Assembly: GCA_037833965.1 (NCBI GenBank)
Contig: AP031355.1
Location: forward strand, 29,041,501-29,105,500
Length of the DNA stretch: 64,000 nucleotides
DNA from: Marchantia polymorpha subsp. ruderalis
Taxonomy: Eukaryota > Streptophyta > Marchantiopsida > Marchantiales > Marchantiaceae
Direction of reading: 5' to 3'
Below are positions 6,360-49,635 of this stretch, in pieces. A program made the position numbers and the translations under genes. The notes under the pieces are model-generated. The model did not search any database. It saw only the letters and a program-made list of their open reading frames with translations, and had not been told where the DNA came from. Within the stretch, counting starts at the first letter, position 1. Every line of letters begins with the position of its first letter.

Positions 6360-7746
6360 AGTTATCCGTCACTTTGATCTAATAATCCCTCATCCTAGTA
6401 TATGGTCTACCATGAGTGATGAAAGTTTATAGCTGCTAGTGGGGTTGAATTTATGGTTCTTCTAACATGGCTACTCCACCTTTGTGTTCCTCTCTGCATC
6501 AAATGTGGCAGGCGTGAGCCACATCAAAGTCAATACTCCGTAGTCTTTGTCATGACTTGTTAGATGTGTTGATTATGACTATACACAGTTTGGTGGAGTC
6601 GAATATGATAAGATGCGGTATTTCCAAGTTGCAACGAGATTGTTCAGGGTGCAAGTCTTGGACACTGCTTCGTCATTACATAGGGGTGGACTGGCTTAGC
6701 CTTCTAACTTTCAAAGGTACTTGTACTTTTGGAAACAGTAATAGTGTCGACCATGTGTTAACATCTTTAGTTAGTTTGAACTAAAGTAGAGGTTACTCAA
6801 AATGTTTATATAGTTTTTTAGCACGAACTAGTCATAGTTGCCACGTCAGCGATCCGCGTGATTGATAGGTAGATAGTAAATGTGTTAGTTAGTAGTGTCA
6901 CGTAAGCGATCCGTGTGTTTGGTAGGTGTAGAGAAAGTGTGTTAGTTGAAAATACCACATCAGCAATCCGTCTGTTTGTTAGTTTATCCGCCACGTTATC
7001 CATCCACTATGAGTGAGATGGATGGTGAGTATAAGATCTTATTTTCTTGTACTTGTTAGAATAGCTATATGAAGAAGAGTAGAACTATTGTTGGTATCTT
7101 TCATCTTCAGAATTTATGCTTTCATTTTCAAGTGAACTTTTCTCTAAACTCTAATGTTATACCATGGTTGTAAGACCTTGCATGATTTTATAGTCAAACA
7201 TGTAATCATTGAACTCGGCGAACGTGACATTGTTCCTAATATACGCATGCGTGTATGTGCTACGGCCTTACTAGACAGGTATTGCACATGAAGCCCTCAG
7301 CGAGAGCAGATGACGTTGCGAGAAATGTGTGATCACGCAAATGACATCATGTACTTTGATGGTTATTGTCTAGAAGAGTTGTGTTTCAATAGATTCGTCT
7401 CTATCTTTCAAGTTGTTTCACCTCGGCTGGAAGGAGGGAACACCTTGCACCATGAACAACCTCGTTGCACCCTTAGAAATACCGCACCTGATTATTCTCG
7501 CCTCCATCAAACTATGGGCAGTCATAATCAACACACCCGACAAGTCACAACAAATGCCAGAGAGGCGTGACTTTGAACGTGGCTCACGCCTGCCACATTT
7601 GACCTAGAGAGTATACCATGTTTCACACAAAGAGTAACAGGAAGGTGGGGAAGCCATGTTAGAAGAACTATAAATTCAACCCCATTGGCAGCTATAAACT
7701 TCGAACAATCCTTGTAGTGATGATTAGCCCAAAGTGTTGGATAACT
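6360..7746. mobile_element. foldback-type DNA element with about 300-bp terminal inverted repeats
   Basis: The left arm (6360-6655) is an imperfect reverse complement of the right arm (7444-7746). Both arms share, in order, agttatcc at the outer edge, tttatagctg, ggggttgaattta, gttcttctaacatggct, atgtggcaggcgtgagccac, tgttgattatgact and tgcggtatttc. The spacer between them is about 790 bp and encodes no recognisable transposase, so the element would be non-autonomous. Arm similarity is fair but clearly decayed. Weaker similarity extends outward to about 6331 and 7780, so the true ends are uncertain, and no target-site duplication was found. Long arms with a tandem-repeat spacer fit foldback elements or long-TIR Mutator-like derivatives; the superfamily cannot be fixed without the duplication. 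Confidence 0.72.
6837..7000 (+). repeat. three degenerate ~58-bp tandem repeats in the foldback spacer
   Basis: Three consecutive units share cacgtnagcgatccg, a gttnggtagg-like middle and a tgtgttagtt end. They start at about 6837, 6894 and 6951, and the third is truncated. They lie between the arms of the inverted-repeat element, where foldback elements often carry tandem repeats. Confidence 0.6.
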
Positions 7747-13906: not shown

Positions 13907-24931
<11,025 letters not shown>

Positions 24932-25500: not shown

Positions 25501-28500
25501 GTGTAGAATATGTTCATCTGATGCTATTGGAATATAGCCCATAGTGTTAAATTTCGTCCTTGTGAGTCTTGATTGATACAAAAAGTAATTATTTATGTAC
25601 ATTTTTCAAAAATATCATTTCCGAAGTATAATGAAAGTTGAATATGTTAGACTACATGAATTTTCTGAACGTAATAAATTTAACTTATGAATTGATTATA
25701 TTTAAAATAGATCAGATTTTATCATACTATAATGTTTCGAATTGAGTGAAGTTGTTTTGAGAATAACTTGAAAGAATACATCTATTCTATCCACGTATTA
25801 TTTCTGGTGAGATTGTTCATGGATTACACATTTCAATTGAATTTTATTATTTCAGTTTGTATCACACTGTCATGATGTAGCTTATGCAGAATGTATTCAA
25901 ATCCTTCAGATATACAATGTCTTTGGTTTTAATATCAGTTCAATTGATATCCATACTTTTTCAAGTTTTGTAAAAAATCTTGCACTCATATTACTCTTCT
26001 GATTTTGTGATTGATTTACAAGGAAAAAACTGATTTATGTTCGTATATATGTAATAACTAAATAATTTTTTCTTTGGATAAAAATAATTTTCATTTACAT
26101 TTGGGTAATGCAAATTTTTTTCTCTTTAAATGATTGACACAGATTTTTTTTAAACGTATCTATTACTATTCAGATACATTGTATCTTAAATACATTCCAA
26201 CATATTTAAATAATTTCAATTGAAATTTTAAAAAATATAATTTAAATCTGCTTCTACTTTTTTTTATTTTTGTGTTAGCTAGAGTAAAAAAATGTAAGTG
26301 AAATTTTTATATAAGTTGACTAACAACGCTTGTTAATTTGATTTTCTTACCAGGTTTGATTCAATATTTCTGTTCATAATTCATAGTTCAGAAAGTTTGA
26401 ATAGATTTTTAATCAAATTACGTACAGTAGATTTAGGGAAAAAAAAATACTGTTTGAAAAAAAAATTCTTTGGAAAAATATATCTCTCAATTTATTTAAC
26501 TTATGCAATTCATGTAATATTTTCAAATGTTTTGAAGTTGATGATTTTGAAAGTTGAATTCAAAACATTTTCTTAAACAAATTTTTTTTAAGAGTGAAGA
26601 TAATTGATCAAACTGTTGTTTGTCCAATGAAAGAATGTAAAATCCTAAAATTATCATCCCATATAAAAAATTCATTTTTTTCAATTTTTTCTCTAATATT
26701 TTTATAATATTAAGATTTAAATCATTAGCTTTATATATAATTATCTGGTTAAATCTAAATCTTTCATTGTGCAGATGCTTCTGATGATTCCATTTATCAA
26801 AAAAATTATTCACTATTTATATTTGAATAAAATCCTCATTTTTATAAAAAAAATATTTCAAAATAATCCTTTTGAGAAAAAAACCTATTAATTAATTTAA
26901 ATAAACATAAAAAATTATATATTTGATAAAATATTCATCATTTATCAAAATTTTTAAAAAAAGCTAGCTTTACTCAAGTTGGGGATTAACTTTAATTAGT
27001 TAAACTTGATTTGAAGGTTTTGTAGATTTAGAGTTTTTTAAACCCAGGAAAAGAGGGTGAGATGTAGCTCCACTCAAACAATGTTTTACATTTTCAGTGT
27101 AGTTTAATGCTCCTCTGAATGTAGCTCGGGAGAGACTAATCGCGTCTATGTTTGAGTGTGGTGATCTTTTGATTTTCCTATGAATTTTTCATAACAAATC
27201 AATTTTTCAATTTTTTTATGTTCATATTGTTATTTGCTTTGAAAATTAATTCTATAAAATAAACAGTTTTTGAATAATCAAAAAATATTATATGTATTTG
27301 CTATTGCAATTTCTTTTCACTTTAAAAATGCTTCTAGTTCAATGATCCTCTTTCACTATTCAGCTATCATGAATCATTTAGGGAAAAAATAAAAAACTCA
27401 TTTTTTAACATAATGAATTTTTAATGTTTTATTATTTAATGAGATTTCATCTTTGTTTGACATTAGAAAAAGAAAAAAATTAAAACTTTCACAGTGTAAA
27501 ATAGCAACCTTAATGTTAAGTTTTTCCCCTGAATATGCTTAATGTATTTTCAATTTTGATAATTTTTGTTGTGACATTGATATTGATATTCAAATTTTAA
27601 TAATTCTTTTCTCAAATTGTCTTTTAAATTTGATAGAATTTTCACACTCTCACAATGACTTTCAAAAAATTTTGAGATGAATTCCTGATTTAATATATTT
27701 AAATCAATCAGTGAATACTATAAAGTTGAACATTTTCTTTTTAAAAAAAATATATCAAATCATCTATATCAACAATTTTTCATCAGATGAAAGTCAGATT
27801 GAAGACGTTTGATAGGATGAAAAAATAATTGAAAATTGCAGATGATTTATTTTATAATATACAATTCTAGTGTATGCTTTGATTAAGTTTTACTTATTAA
27901 ATTACAAATATTAAAACTTTCTTGTGAGTTAGTTGATATATTATATTTTGAGCAAAAAAAAATTTGGGATCTTTATAATTGAGTTTTTTCAAAAGTACTT
28001 GCAAGATTGAAATATTGACCCAATAGTAAAAAGTTGTATTCTAAATTTAATTTGATCAGATTATAAATATATTTTGTAAGAAAAATTGAAAAAATGTCTT
28101 TTCATATTTCTACTTTATATACGAATTCTTTGTATGTAATATTTATTATAATTTTTAATATTATTAAAAATTTCTTATTATTATTTTTATACCTCCCAAG
28201 TAAATTTTGGTTTTTGCAATCAACAATTTAATTGTTTAGTGTTGGAAAAGTTTAACTGTTGGAAAAGTTAGTGGCAATCATGAATGCAGCAACTTGTATT
28301 TGAAAGAACCCAAATTTAATGCATAAGATTATAAACTGAAATGTGAGAACTTATAAATATGAGTTTGAGAGATGACCGATGTCAAAAAATAGATTTAATC
28401 ACCTATCAATATAGGGGTATATATATTGTGAATTATAATAAGATGATAGTGAAAAATGATATACAAGAGTATGTTACGTTGAATAAAAGAAAGATCAATA

Positions 28501-29230
28501 CGAGTTATTACGATATGGAATTGAACACTGACTTTTCACATTTTGAGGAATAAAAAAATATTTTCCTCTTTGTAATTAAATTATATCTATTAAAATTCAC
28601 TTATTATATTGCAAAGGATAATAGAAAATGTACCATAACTTGCAAAATCAGCGTGATAATGCGAAGATAATGTTAAGGTAGTAAAGTTCATATAGAAAAT
28701 GCCTGGATGATATTCATGAACCACGATTGTAATAACTTAGAAAGGTTAATTGAGAAAATTTTGTATATGATGTAGGCTTGTATATTTCTATAAAAAATAA
28801 CGATATTTATTTTTAAGCGTTTTTTGGTTGATTTGTGTTGACACATTTGTAAAACATAAAATTATTCATTCATTTTTTGAAATCTTCATATTCATAATAA
28901 ATGAAAAAAAATAAATGCATATTTTTATTAGATTTAATTGATAAAAATTTCATATTTTACAAATTTAAATCTTTGCGCTTGGAGTATTGATGCAATTAGT
29001 GAGGTGAAATCGAGACACATCAATTGAAACTATTTCATTTCTTTCATAGAACATTATGATTTAATTTAAGAATTTTTTTTAACTTAGATTAAAATTAAAC
29101 ACTTATAGGTTCTATAATAACACATTTGATAAGGATGATAACATATTTAGATTTAAATTGAAAAAACTAAAATACATGATAAATTAAGGAAAATTTGAAC
29201 TTCTTTGTACTCATCATTATTGTTCCAACT
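25500..29230. other. very AT-rich block I, no genes
   Basis: Nearly all of this stretch is A/T with homopolymer runs of A or T, and both strands are filled with stops. The longest frames (for example 28359-28553 plus, 26523-26813 minus) have Lys/Asn/Ile/Phe-biased content expected of AT-rich non-coding DNA. No tandem period was visible. It is contiguous with the HMG-box array that follows. A small less AT-rich patch lies near 27050-27140. Confidence 0.6.
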
Positions 29231-29234
29231 TTAA

Positions 29235-31190
29235 GCGGAGATACTCTTCATCTTTCTTGATGAGTTTAAGAATCGTTAAAGAATGATCATTTCGAGACGA
29301 AGTATGTTGATATGGTTGGCAAAAGCAAAGGAGAGAAATGAAAAAACATCTTTGAATTTGAGAATGCTTTTTACATTGACAAAACCTCTACTGTAGAAGC
29401 AAGAGAAGAAGATTACAACAAGCAAAAGTAGTACAATGAAGAATACAAATAAGGAGCAAATGAAAAATTGAATGAGTATGTTTAGAAGGACAAAAAGTCT
29501 AAGAAACAACAAAATTTGAAGAAGAACACAAAAGCTATCAATAATCAAACCAACCGAACACTTCATCAAGTGATTTTTCATCTTTCTTGATGAGTTAAAG
29601 AAGTTATTTAAGTAATATCATATCGAGACAAAGGATGTCGTCGTGGTAGGCAAAGCCGAAAGAGAGAAATGGAAAGACATGTATGAATTTAAGAGTATTA
29701 CTACATTAACAAGTTTCAACAAAAGAAGCAAGAATACGATAAGTTTATATCAACATACAACTATCAAAAGCAGGAGTATGAACAAAACAAAGATCAAATG
29801 AGGCTGTTGTGAAAGACTCAAAGTTAAAGAAAGAGTGGAAATCCAAGAAGGTCACAAATGATGCCAAAAACAAAACAAACCGAAGAGGTCATCAACTAAC
29901 TCCTCCATCTTTCTTGATGAGTTCAAGAAGTTGTTTAAGGAAGATAATCTCAAAGCTAAAATGATCGGTGTGGTTGGCAAAGTAAGAGAAGAGAAATGGA
30001 AGTACGTAGCTGAATTTAAGAAGTCTCTCTACATTGACAAGGTTTAAGAAAATAAAAAGAGTATAACATGTATATGTAAATTAACAACAAGCAATAGCAG
30101 GAGGATGAAAAAAACAAAGATGTAAATCAAATGAGACTGTTGTGAAAGACAAAAAGTCAAAGAAACATCAAAAGTCCAAGAAGGTCACGAAGTGTGAGAA
30201 GAACCAAACCAAAAAAAGAGGTCATCATGTGACTTCTTCATTTTTTTTGATGGATTTAAAAAAAGATTTTAAGGAAGATCATCCCCATGTGAAGCTGATC
30301 ATTGTGGTTGGCAAAGCGGCAAAGCCGGAGGAGAGAAATGAAAAAACATCTATGCATTTGAAAATGCTCTTTACATCGGAAAGTCTCAAAAGAGGAAGCA
30401 AGAGTATGATAAGTCAATGTTTGCTTATATCAAGCAAAAGCAGGACGATGAAAAGTAAAATGAGAGAATAGCTAAAGAGTCAAATGAGGCCATTGTGAAA
30501 GACGCAAAGTCAAAGAAGCAACGAAAGTCTAATAAGGACAAGAAGGCTGCCAAGAATCAAATCAATTGAAGAGATCATCAACTGACTTCTTCATCTTTCT
30601 TGATAAGTTCAAGAAATTGTTAAAGGAAGATAATCTTGAGATGAAAGTGGTATCCGTGGTTGGCAAACCCGGAGTAGAGAGTTGGAAAGACATGTTTGAA
30701 TTTGAGAAGCCTTCATACATTAATAAGTCCTTATAGAAGAAGCAAAAGTAGGATGATACACCAGGAAGAAGCACAAAGATGAAAAGAACAAAGAGGAAAA
30801 AACCTGAAAAATCAAGTGAGGTAGTTGTGAAAGATGCAAAGTAAAATAAACAACGAAAGTCCAAGAAGTTCAAAAAAGCTGCCATGAATCAAATCAAACA
30901 AAGAGATCATCAATAGACAGCTCCATCTTTCTTAATGAGTTCAAGAAGTTGTATAAGGAAAATAATCTCGAGGCAAAGGTGTTTGCCGAAGTTTGCAAAG
31001 CCGGAGGAGAGAAATGGAAAGACATGTCTGAATTTGAGAAGTCTCCCTACATTGACTCAATAGAAGAAGCAAAAGTACAATAAGTTAATGTCAACTTACT
31101 ACAAACAAAAGCAAGACGATGAAGAGGAAGATGAGGGAACACCTGAACAATTGAGTGAGTCTATTGGTAAAGACGCAAAGTCAAAAAACA
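29235..31190 (+). pseudogene. broken tandem array of six HMG-box (HMGB-type) units
   Basis: Six head-to-tail units begin near 29245, 29575, 29902, 30235, 30588 and 30921, so the period is about 327-353 bp (about 110 codons). Each reads, on the plus strand, an HMG-box-like core: FLDEFKKLFKEDN, then a GVVGKAGGEKWKDM-like segment, then FEKSPYIDK, then a KKKQEYDKL-like helix. A Lys-rich linker follows (DAKSKKQRKSKK, ending RRGHH). This matches the plant HMGB pattern of F-x-EFRKxFKEENP, VGKAGGEKWK and EKAPY. Every unit is interrupted by stops or frame changes, so no full-length product is made. The linker of one unit runs straight into the next box with no UTR or intron, suggesting an ancestral multi-box open frame and not separate gene copies. 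The longest surviving frame is 30142-30471. HMG boxes bind and bend DNA; no present function is claimed. Confidence 0.75.
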
Positions 31191-32640
31191 CAGTTACTTC
31201 AAGGTGTTGTGAATGGAATTATACGTGTGTAATGGACAAAAAGATTGTGTCACTATTCATGAACGAACAACTTTGAATGGATACCTGTTTTCATGCATGA
31301 AAACAAAACTCAGTTAAAATTGAGTATGCAGTGAATATCATTTGCATCGAAGTTGAGGTTAAGCTCACTACTGTTTTTTTAGACACATTATCAAAGAAAA
31401 GGCTTCAGATTGAGAGTTTTTGAACCAGGTGTTTAAATTTGATGCTACGAAAACTATGAACAATAGCTAGCGCCAGGCTTTAAAATCTTTTGAGAGTCAA
31501 GAAGAATTTGTTTGCCTAGTTTCTCATTTAAGTGCTATATTGATGAGCAAAGTAACTTGTGAACATTTTAAGAGTAAAATATTGAAGAAAGTACACTTGT
31601 GATAATGTAGTGTGATGTGATAGAGATGTATGTTGTGAGGCTGCATGCATGTGCAATTATCAAGAGAGAAGGTGAAGTCTGTATTGGTATGTATCGTAGT
31701 GACTTTGGATCAAAACAAATTGAAGGCTTATCAGATCAAGTATTCACGGATTGGAAATAAAATATTAATGTTGTAAAAGTTGTGTTTGTACATGAACCAA
31801 AAGTAGGGTGACAGGAGCCAAGGTCTCCGATACAAGAATATGAAGAGATGTCATCATTTTGGTACAACATCCCAGAATACTGTACTAGATTCAGTAATCT
31901 AAACTCAGAATGTCTTTTTTCAACTTACGGAGATTACATGATCTGCTTTTTGGATAAAGGAAACATTGTGACTCGACGAAAAGAATCAGGGAGATTTCGT
32001 CTAAGAGTCTGAACAGCGAGAACAAAGGTGAGGAAAACTTTGGTTTTAAAAAAGAAGTAGGAAAGCTAAGCTGCTGTATAAGGATGTAACGTGTTAATTG
32101 AATGAATTATGTTGGGGGTTGCTCTTGTAAGTTCGATAGTTCGTAGTAGAAGCATATTTTCAATATTGGTAGATTCGATTGGCGCAAGGCTTTGAAAGTC
32201 CCGCGTTTCGTCAATTTTGACGAGAATCCTCGAATTGAGATTGGCTTGACCATCGGACAGTCACATCAACGACGCGCTTGTCCTGCATGAATCGAGAATC
32301 GTACTGTGCATTGTACGTTCTTTCCGTCATGTACATCTGGACCATAAGGACAAATTGAATAAAGACAGGGTTGAGATCAGAACACAGGAATTTCGGAAGT
32401 CGCAAACTGTCGGGATTGGATTCACAAGTTGAAGCATCCCAGCAAGGCTGATCTCATAGTCCGCTGTGAGCTACCAACTGGCGAGTTGTCTGTCCTTGGA
32501 ATCAAGATTTCGTGCAATAGGACAGATGGTTGCCCATACTGTCGTTCTCTTAATGGCTGTATTCGTGGCCAAAGGAATAAACTCGGACGACTTTTAGACG
32601 AATAGTCTTGATAACACACTGTCGAGACTTAATCTTCAGT
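31191..32640. other. unassigned interval after the HMG-box array
   Basis: Composition rises gradually from AT-rich to ordinary. No domain, RNA gene or transposon end was recognised. Short frames at 32211-32619 on the minus strand have no recognisable motifs. Confidence 0.35.
31286..31305. repeat. perfect 20-bp palindrome
   Basis: The sequence tgttttcatgcatgaaaaca is its own reverse complement, with no loop. It lies about 100 bases beyond the HMG-box array. Confidence 0.8.
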
Positions 32641-32792: not shown

Positions 32793-32841
32793 TGTGACCT
32801 TCTCGGTCTATATGGAGGCCATATAGACCGAGAAAGTCACA
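32793..32841. repeat. near-perfect snap-back palindrome, 23-bp arms, 3-base loop
   Basis: The left arm 32793-32815 and right arm 32819-32841 are reverse complements with a single mismatch, around the loop agg. Such a tight cruciform-forming sequence is not expected by chance. A short gctgtatgtatgtatgc repeat lies just downstream. Confidence 0.85.
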
Positions 32842-47020: not shown

Positions 47021-49133
47021 CTAAAACCCTTCTCTCTTGGTGAAGCAAACCTCAAGAGCACGCTCCTTGGGGATGAAGCCGAAGACGGTCTTCTTGTCTT
47101 TAGTCCAGTCGCTAGGGAACTTGATATCATACCTCTGAGCTAAACTGCCGACTATCATGTGCGTGCAGTTCATGGCGAGTGGAGATCCAGGGCAAATTCG
47201 TCTTCCAGCACCGAACACAATGTAGCTGGGGTCTTCGCCGGCCAAACCCACTTCTTTGTTGAGAAATCTTTCAGGCTTGAGCACAAAAGGGTCGGGGAAG
47301 ATCTCCGGGTTGTGAGCCATGGCCCAGACATTGATCCAGATAGAAGAGCCCTTGGGAATGTCATAACCGTCCAGCTTCGTGTCCTCCATGTTCACGTGTG
47401 GGACCAGGATAGTGAGCGTACGGTGTAGTCTGAGACACTCTTTGATGAAGGCTTGGAAGTAGGGCAGCTTCTCGACGTCCTCCAGTCTCAACTGTTTCTT
47501 CCCGATCTTCTCGTCCATCTCGGCTTGAATCTTCTTGAGGATGTCGGGACGATCAGCCAGCTCCTTGATGGCTCCTTCGATCGCCTTGGCCGTGGTTTCT
47601 TGACCTGCAGTGGAGGATCACACACTCTACCAGTCAGCACCTAAAACAAGTAATGCGCATCCCCGATAAGAACAACACTGCACATCAAACCAGCCATCAA
47701 CGTAAAGCTCGTCAAAGTTGCACCCACCTGCGAAAATAACTTCGTCGAGTAGATGCATGGATCCATCGGTGCTGATTTCCCCATTCTTCTCGGAATCAGC
47801 AAGAAGGTCACAGAAGGACCACTTCTTCTCTCCGCCGTACCTGCCAATAAGAAACAGTCACAACGTAGATCTGTAAGAAACAGCCGATTGCCTTGCCTGA
47901 CCACTGTCCACGAGATCTCTGTCGTGCACGTGCACCAGCCACGACGAGATGATCTTATAGCGGGTGCTCGAAACTGGCATCGCATGCGGTTTCAATGTCC
48001 GGTTATCAGACGTCGACAAACTTTGTCATAAATGCAGAACGGGAAGCGAGGCTCTTGTCCGAGACCGGGCAGAGGACACACTTGCTATGTTGTCTGCAGC
48101 GTTCCAGCTCTCTGGGAGGCCTCTGATCGTAATCACCAGGCAGCCAAAGGAGTTACAGTGTCACAGTGGCTCTAATTCTAGTCGTGACGTGCGTGCGCCA
48201 ACAGACCGATACAAAACGACGGATCGTGAGAAGGTAAATATCCAGATGCCGAAGGAAAGGACGATGAATGCTGACTTACCTCGATCGGTCCTCGAGAATA
48301 GTCTTCAGAATTCTGAATTTATCGGCCATGCACTTCCTCGTCACGTATCGGCCCCAGTAGAGGTCGAAGAGGGGCTCGATGTGTGGGAAGAACCATTTCG
48401 CGAACTCGGACATGTCGAGACAGTAGAACATGATATCGTTGAGAGCATTGAGCTCCTCGCCGTATTTTTCTGCACCGGGTCCGAACATGAAGACCAGGAA
48501 GATTCGGAGGAGGAACACTCTGCAGATCAGGGTGCGGACCTCGAAAGGGTGCTCTCCGTTTCTGCTCAAGGCTCCCTTCTTGGTTTCGAGCTCGTTGTAC
48601 AGCACTTGAAGGAGATCCACAATGAAGGCATCGCCGTGGATTTTTCTGTGCTGCAGCTGTCCGACAGTCATGAGCTTCCTGTTGGTCCTCCAAGTGGGGC
48701 TGTAGTGGGTAAACAAGACGCCAGTATCCTTGCCATCCTTGCCGTAGACCATGTACCTCTGCGCGAATGTTGGGGGAGATCGAGAGGCAAATGTTTGCCC
48801 TTGAGTGACCAGCACCTCCTTTGTCAGTTCGGGTGACGACACAACATAAACCTTTTGCTTGTTCACGAGCTTGAAGCTCATGACGGGCCATTTGTTTTGA
48901 GCTGCTATTTCGGCCAGCTTTTTAGGAAGAACGTCGCCAAACAGCAAATTCATGTTACCTATGAAGGGTAAAGGTTTGGGACCTGGTGGGTATCTCCTGC
49001 CATCACTCTTCCCACCGAATAATTTCATGCTGACGATCCCCAGAAGCACCAAAGCCAGAACTGGCTTCCACATATCGGGCCATGCCTGGTTCACCAAGCT
49101 GTCCTTAAGACTGTTAAACGTAGCATTCTCCAT
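47021..49133 (-). CDS. cytochrome P450, CYP71 clan, CYP73 (cinnamate 4-hydroxylase)-like
   Basis: Exons are 49133-48280, 47840-47728 and 47604-47021, all with GT-AG introns; they give 516 residues, normal for a plant P450. The N-terminus has an ER membrane anchor (PVLALVLLGIVSM, about residues 24-36) and the hinge YPPGPKPLPFIGN. Landmarks are the I-helix AGQETT (residues 322-327), K-helix ECLR (378-381), PERF (433-436) and the heme loop FGAGRRICPG with Cys about 460. VSSPELTKEVLVTQG, HYSPTWRTNRKLMTV, LVPHVNMEDTKLDGYDIP and LPYFQAFIKE closely resemble CYP73 segments. The two introns fall in phases 2 and 1, the second inside the I-helix, as I remember for CYP73A genes. Differences from true C4H (AGQETT for AAIETT, FGAGRRIC for FGVGRRSC) make the substrate uncertain. 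The enzyme would be anchored in the ER and use a P450 reductase. Confidence 0.9.
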
Positions 49134-49525: not shown

Positions 49526-49635
49526 GGAAGAAGATTGGTGGATTGCTACAACACTGCTCGCTGTCCAAAGACCTGAAGACGGAAGAAGATTGGCGGAAAG
49601 CTACAACACTGCTCGCTGTGCATAGACCTGAACGC
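49526..49635 (+). repeat. two-copy tandem repeat of 55 bp upstream of the P450 gene
   Basis: Units 49526-49580 and 49581-49635 share ggaagaagattgg, gctacaacactgctcgctgt and agacctgaa, with about six differences. They lie about 390-500 bases upstream of the P450 start codon, in the likely promoter. Confidence 0.8.

Follow-up and report, generated by a model that had tools for sequence, protein, structure and literature searches.

The block at positions 29241-31208 of the window, which is the whole 64,000-nucleotide stretch analysed here (C6:29041501-29105500 of a 241-Mb genome in nine contigs), in all likelihood belongs to a set of tandem repeats that is scattered over the genome and arose from processed copies of the host's own one-box HMGB gene. 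The first-pass annotation had described six tandem HMG-box units, all of them broken, and this description is borne out, as each of the six has a match to the spliced host HMGB transcript (E 1.1e-20 to 3.9e-50) and all are decayed. Three origins had been put forward, a lost architectural protein gene, a repeatedly duplicated retrocopy or a foreign gene, and the retrocopy is the correct one; overall, that earlier interpretation is partly supported. The features of the block and its surroundings are as follows.

29241..31208, + strand: six-unit degenerate HMGB-cDNA tandem array of the ~343-bp type (part of exon 2, exons 3, 4 and 5, part of exon 6)
29245..29559, + strand: unit 1, truncated at its 5' end; transcript match 29244-29472, E 1.1e-20
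29563..29887, + strand: unit 2; transcript match 29479-29783, E 7.6e-33
29889..30220, + strand: unit 3; transcript match 29799-30110, E 3.9e-37
30222..30573, + strand: unit 4; transcript match 30132-30483, E 1.3e-41
30575..30905, + strand: unit 5; transcript match 30485-30807, E 2.1e-40; Pfam HMG_box 20.3 bits, below the cut-off
30907..31208, + strand: unit 6; transcript match 30816-31163, E 3.9e-50; Pfam HMG_box 31.2 bits, above the cut-off
28969..29027, no strand assigned: short dispersed repeat ~215 bp upstream of the array, found on all nine contigs among the matches listed

The six units follow one another head to tail at spacings of 331, 326, 333, 353 and 332 bp by profile projection; the tandem period previously read as 330-350 bp is thus confirmed with a slightly wider range (326-353 bp), and the pairwise DNA identity of the units is 65-74%. 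The array stops shortly past an exon 6/exon 2 repeat junction. A reversed copy of the window, the single control, gave zero matches to the HMGB transcript at E up to 10. The units are spread over three reading frames with many stops, and when seven stop-free pieces of the window were compared with Pfam, unit 6 alone exceeded the HMG_box cut-off (31.2 versus 25.4 bits), while five stop-free pieces from units 1-4 gave zero HMG_box matches. Pfam alone therefore places an HMG box in fewer than four of the six units, an outcome that the first-pass annotation had named as grounds for giving up its reading; however, plain Pfam misses most units because frameshifts hide them, and searches with the transcript and with family-specific profiles recover all six. 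The window array encodes no HMG-box protein, and it most likely has no function. Its G+C content is 0.345, compared to 0.224 for positions 26000-29240, 0.345 for 31209-32000 and 0.499 for exons 2-6 of the parent gene.

This parent, L047 (C9:9581000-9586500, C9:9.58 Mb), is an intact, intron-bearing, one-box HMGB gene whose coding exons are delimited by GT/AG splice sites and, when joined, encode a 170-aa protein with a basic N-terminus, one HMG box (76.2 bits to HMG_box) and an acidic tail. Comparison with the genome's own HMGB genes, as the earlier reading had proposed, traced the units to L047: the unit consensus aligns exon by exon to exons 2, 3, 4, 5 and 6 at 81-93% identity, and, as also noted at first sight, no introns interrupt the units, in which parent exons 2-6 are contiguous. 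To judge from this alignment, the units are the spliced exons of L047 without its introns. Three other candidates from the HMG_box search (L032, L034 and L035) were rejected as parents, being other HMG-type sequences, and the genome's own 3xHMG-box gene presumably lies near C3:13.326 Mb (L005, L010). The isolated, AT-rich setting of the block would suit a foreign (viral, bacterial or fungal) HMG gene, but the source sequence consists of exons of the host's own intron-bearing gene and one unit had no match in 50,697 phage records, which leaves a foreign origin with a practically negligible chance.

Related sequence occurs at ~30 places on eight of the nine contigs (C2-C9), as counted by hand among the matches listed. 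This approximate count, which draws on searches with 131, 273 and 140 matches, merges matches less than 10 kb apart, includes some places with one or two rows, and leaves out the parent gene and three HMG_box_2 matches with stops (C3:59687, C3:15235299 and C7:27919676). Sequence was retrieved, always from one assembly, for 21 of the 30 places (the window, L022-L031, C7:18.17 Mb with L038 and L039, L040-L043 and L048-L052), and two or more tandem units were found at 19 of the 21, L048 and L052 having a single unit each; array size across loci ranges from 2 to more than 20 units. The modal head-to-tail spacings are 94 bp (21 cases), 221 bp (15 cases) and 343 bp (8 cases, with 344 bp three times), and 248 bp is the junction distance in L024. 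The large unit measures 343 bp by profile projection versus 344 bp by summing modal segments, and none of the unit lengths (94, 221, 248 and 343/344 bp) is a multiple of three. At C2:28.93 Mb, two opposed HMGB arrays (L049:877-4187 on the - strand and L049:4199-4953 on the + strand) lie ~11 bp apart and form an inverted repeat, a transcript of which could fold back on itself.

Splicing is also evident in the untranslated regions at other loci. Contiguous matches to 5'UTR, exon 1 and exon 2 precede the boxes in L027, L050 and L051 and are present in the single copy L048, spliced exons 6-7-8 follow the boxes in L029, L030, L031, L049 (twice) and L052, and L052 combines a 5'UTR piece with exons 2-8. 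Neither 5' nor 3' mRNA ends are found in the window array, nor in the other retrieved 343-type arrays, and because these arrays lack them we infer their retroposition from the spliced structure and the kinship of the units. At the few ends that were examined by eye, neither a poly(A) tail nor a target-site duplication was visible; the copies are old.

The points at which the repeats restart can be given in transcript coordinates: ~874/875 joins 532 in the window, L026 and L038-L043; 823 joins 603 in L022, L023, L025 and L027-L031; 851 joins 604 in L024; ~718 joins 621-625 in L022, L023, L025, L027, L028 and L031; and ~1048 joins 603 in L031 and L049 (L026 and L040 were excluded from the 221-type count). 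As read from the consensus, the 874/875-532, 823-603 and ~718-621/625 junctions fall on shared TAAG, CAA and GCC (3-4 bases) inside exons, and no clear shared stretch was seen in the consensus sequence at the 851/604 junction. All five junction types lie inside exons and none at a splice site. Rolling-circle reverse transcription of an exonic circular RNA could account for intronless exon concatemers with periods that are not multiples of three, but a splice donor meets a splice acceptor in none of the five junction types; back-splicing is unlikely on this ground, and we regard such an origin of the tandem exons as extremely improbable. That each unit module consists of whole, back-spliced exons was likewise rejected, since the junctions fall inside exons. 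Box-to-3'UTR units (transcript 603 to ~1048) in L031 (L031:2716-3205) and L049 restart at 603, and thus 3'UTR pieces are embedded within these two arrays.

Unit lengths were compared with the transcript segment by segment. Among 38 units spanning the exon 2 segment T585-632 (almost wholly from 343-type arrays, with the C7 overlap removed), the length difference is -1 in 24, -2 in five, -17 in three and one of six single other values in the remainder, with 0 in none, while four other segments have a mode of 0 (66/130, 55/104, 54/70 and 22/27). The window's spanning units all show -1 (5/5). This deletion is present in the 343-type arrays, in one L023 unit and in L048, whose segment is at -2 with one base lost at the same place as in the 343-type. 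Thus, the one-base exon 2 deletion predates amplification in the window's 343-type family. It is not common to every array, an option we considered and rejected, as this place has its native length in the first boxes of L050 and L051 (221-type) and in the separate copy L052; two further single-base losses are peculiar to L027. With the deletion absent from L050 and L051, a single progenitor does not account for all arrays, and at least two retrocopy lineages were amplified.

These length data bear directly on whether the array is what remains of a genuine six-box gene for an architectural protein. A majority consensus of 188 unit matches does read as an HMG box with a Lys-rich linker and one stop, and considered by itself the exon 6/exon 2 junction looks in frame (345 bases); in L024, one box and the beginning of its neighbour lie in a single open stretch, which then ends at a stop. 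However, the exon 2 deletion breaks the frame of the 343-type (-1 or -2 in 29 of the 38 spanning units and 0 in none), and the 221-, 248- and 94-bp types lose the frame through their repeat length. Moreover, spliced UTRs of a one-box mRNA edge several arrays, and the longest open frame beside any match, among the matches listed, measures 200 aa, and the match concerned contains stops. Nor is there an excess of synonymous change: in non-CpG columns, with mutation type matched, 3793 nonsynonymous changes away from the unit consensus were observed versus 2938.8 expected at synonymous rates (1.29x), and no codon-position effect appeared (P(pos3) 0.85), some C7 units being counted twice in the consensus, constraint and identity tallies. 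The divergence of the units looks neutral, with coding constraint lost. Because of the inherited frameshift and the lack of visible protein-level constraint, it is very unlikely that a six-box frame ever existed, and we consider a lost six-box gene correspondingly improbable as the origin of the window array.

The units retain 92% of parental A and 91% of T, 56% of C and 62.5% of G. C>T and G>A changes dominate, at rates of 0.38 in CG and 0.37 in CHG versus 0.23 in CHH contexts. Units are about as similar within loci (0.67-0.76, about 0.72) as between loci (0.704), which is the pattern expected from rapid, old amplification and dispersal. L029, in part an exception, was amplified locally as well, since many of its units share a ~13-base deletion between transcript positions 633 and 705.

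When 16 places (20 loci) were compared, the shared DNA consisted of the arrays or retrocopy ends plus short pieces at L023:2530-2950 and L028:4903-4966. In the 2-kb flanks of the window array, one short repeat and a local inverted match are the only sequences that are not single-copy. The short repeat at 28969-29027 has 41 matches including itself (40 scored of 67 candidates), its copies being ~73-88% similar and extending to the small contig C1. A palindrome-like inverted pair with a self-match on the opposite strand is located at 32793-32841, and a 57-bp tandem repeat of 2.5 copies at 6841-6982. Elsewhere in the window, we take the ORFs at 15860-16378 and 24425-24931 (within 15860-24931, - strand) to resemble parts of an organelle-targeted DNA gyrase A gene and those within 47021-49133 (- strand) to resemble a plant cytochrome P450; a 55-bp tandem pair (49526-49632, 90% matches) lies beside the P450-like ORFs.

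Upstream of the HMGB 5'UTR, three loci (L027, L050 and L051) have additional sequence in common. It is a member of a dispersed family and, in antisense orientation to HMGB, shows similarity to the protease and reverse transcriptase of Ty3/gypsy, a putative label that draws in part on characteristic motifs. One relative of this sequence scores 21.3 bits to gag-asp_proteas, below the cut-off of 28.2, and another scores 22.7 bits to a zinc knuckle, above the cut-off; Pfam searches on broken pieces next to HMGB copies were uninformative. In all three loci the gypsy-like part stops immediately ahead of the HMGB 5'UTR, the end point being almost identical (~855 in L050, 2003 in L051 and 5982 in L027). 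It is conceivable, if rather unlikely, that the arrays are internal repeats of a nonautonomous Ty3/gypsy-like LTR element that took up spliced HMGB mRNA as a captured cDNA, lengthened it by template switching at short shared sequences and spread it over eight chromosomes. The short shared bases at the junctions would fit template switching, which PMC5408686 presents as a general mechanism of gene capture by LTR retrotransposons. Against this, the gypsy-like part is antisense to HMGB, and by tblastn a match was found in only 3 of 25 loci (22 places, parent included), the other 22 having none. Moreover, L050 and L051 lie ~110 kb apart with 83% identity over 1.4 kb, and to judge by their sequences they may be one segmental duplication.

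We thus favour processed copies of the host HMGB gene as the source of the arrays, with a history that most probably ran as follows. The mRNA of the gene at C9:9.58 Mb was retroposed more than once, reverse transcription presumably preceding tandem expansion. In one retrocopy lineage, by then a pseudogene with the one-base deletion, the stretch from exon 2 to exon 6 was tandemly duplicated into ~343-bp units, the family of the window, while in other retrocopies without that deletion shorter stretches (221, 248 and 94 bp) were duplicated, breaking the frame. The arrays then expanded, probably by unequal exchange or template switching, and were copied to many chromosomal sites in an old burst, after which the copies decayed in a neutral-looking manner, mainly by C>T and G>A changes.

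The family shows how cDNA copies of one chromatin gene can become dispersed tandem-repeat families of several unit lengths, and for each length a junction in a single known transcript can be named as the source. There is also a warning for annotation, since any multi-domain repeat protein that was predicted from blocks of this kind would be an artefact. Since the parent, the junctions and the decay spectrum are all readable, the family could be used to date the burst and to measure C>T decay in this plant; if the gypsy-like reading were true, it would represent a retroelement whose passenger is a self-lengthening exon satellite.

Retrocopy-derived tandem arrays are already known, and sub-gene HMGB cDNA units of multiple lengths at ~30 places appear to be a variant that we have not found described, a literature search mostly outside subscription journals having returned no description of such HMGB arrays. 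The arrays resemble processed pseudogenes in lacking introns, in having spliced UTRs at several loci and in being dispersed and decayed, but differ in that the coding middle is tandemly repeated and in that the sequence scattered across most contigs is array material and not whole cDNAs. Plant 3xHMG-box proteins are encoded by intact genes with several HMG boxes in tandem; the arrays share with them the presence of more than one tandem HMG box, whereas the array boxes derive from a one-box HMGB. The LTR gene capture covered by PMC5408686 is similar in that a retrocopy lies beside LTR-element sequence with short shared junction bases, while here this applies to three loci only and in antisense orientation. 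In the D4Z4/DUX4 macrosatellite, a tandem array with an intronless retrotransposed gene as outlined in PMC3004920, a retrocopy of an intron-bearing gene for a DNA-binding protein likewise gave rise to a tandem array with dispersed relatives; the D4Z4 units, however, are 3.3 kb long with an ORF conserved by selection, whereas the HMGB units are sub-gene in size (94-343 bp), out of frame and neutral.
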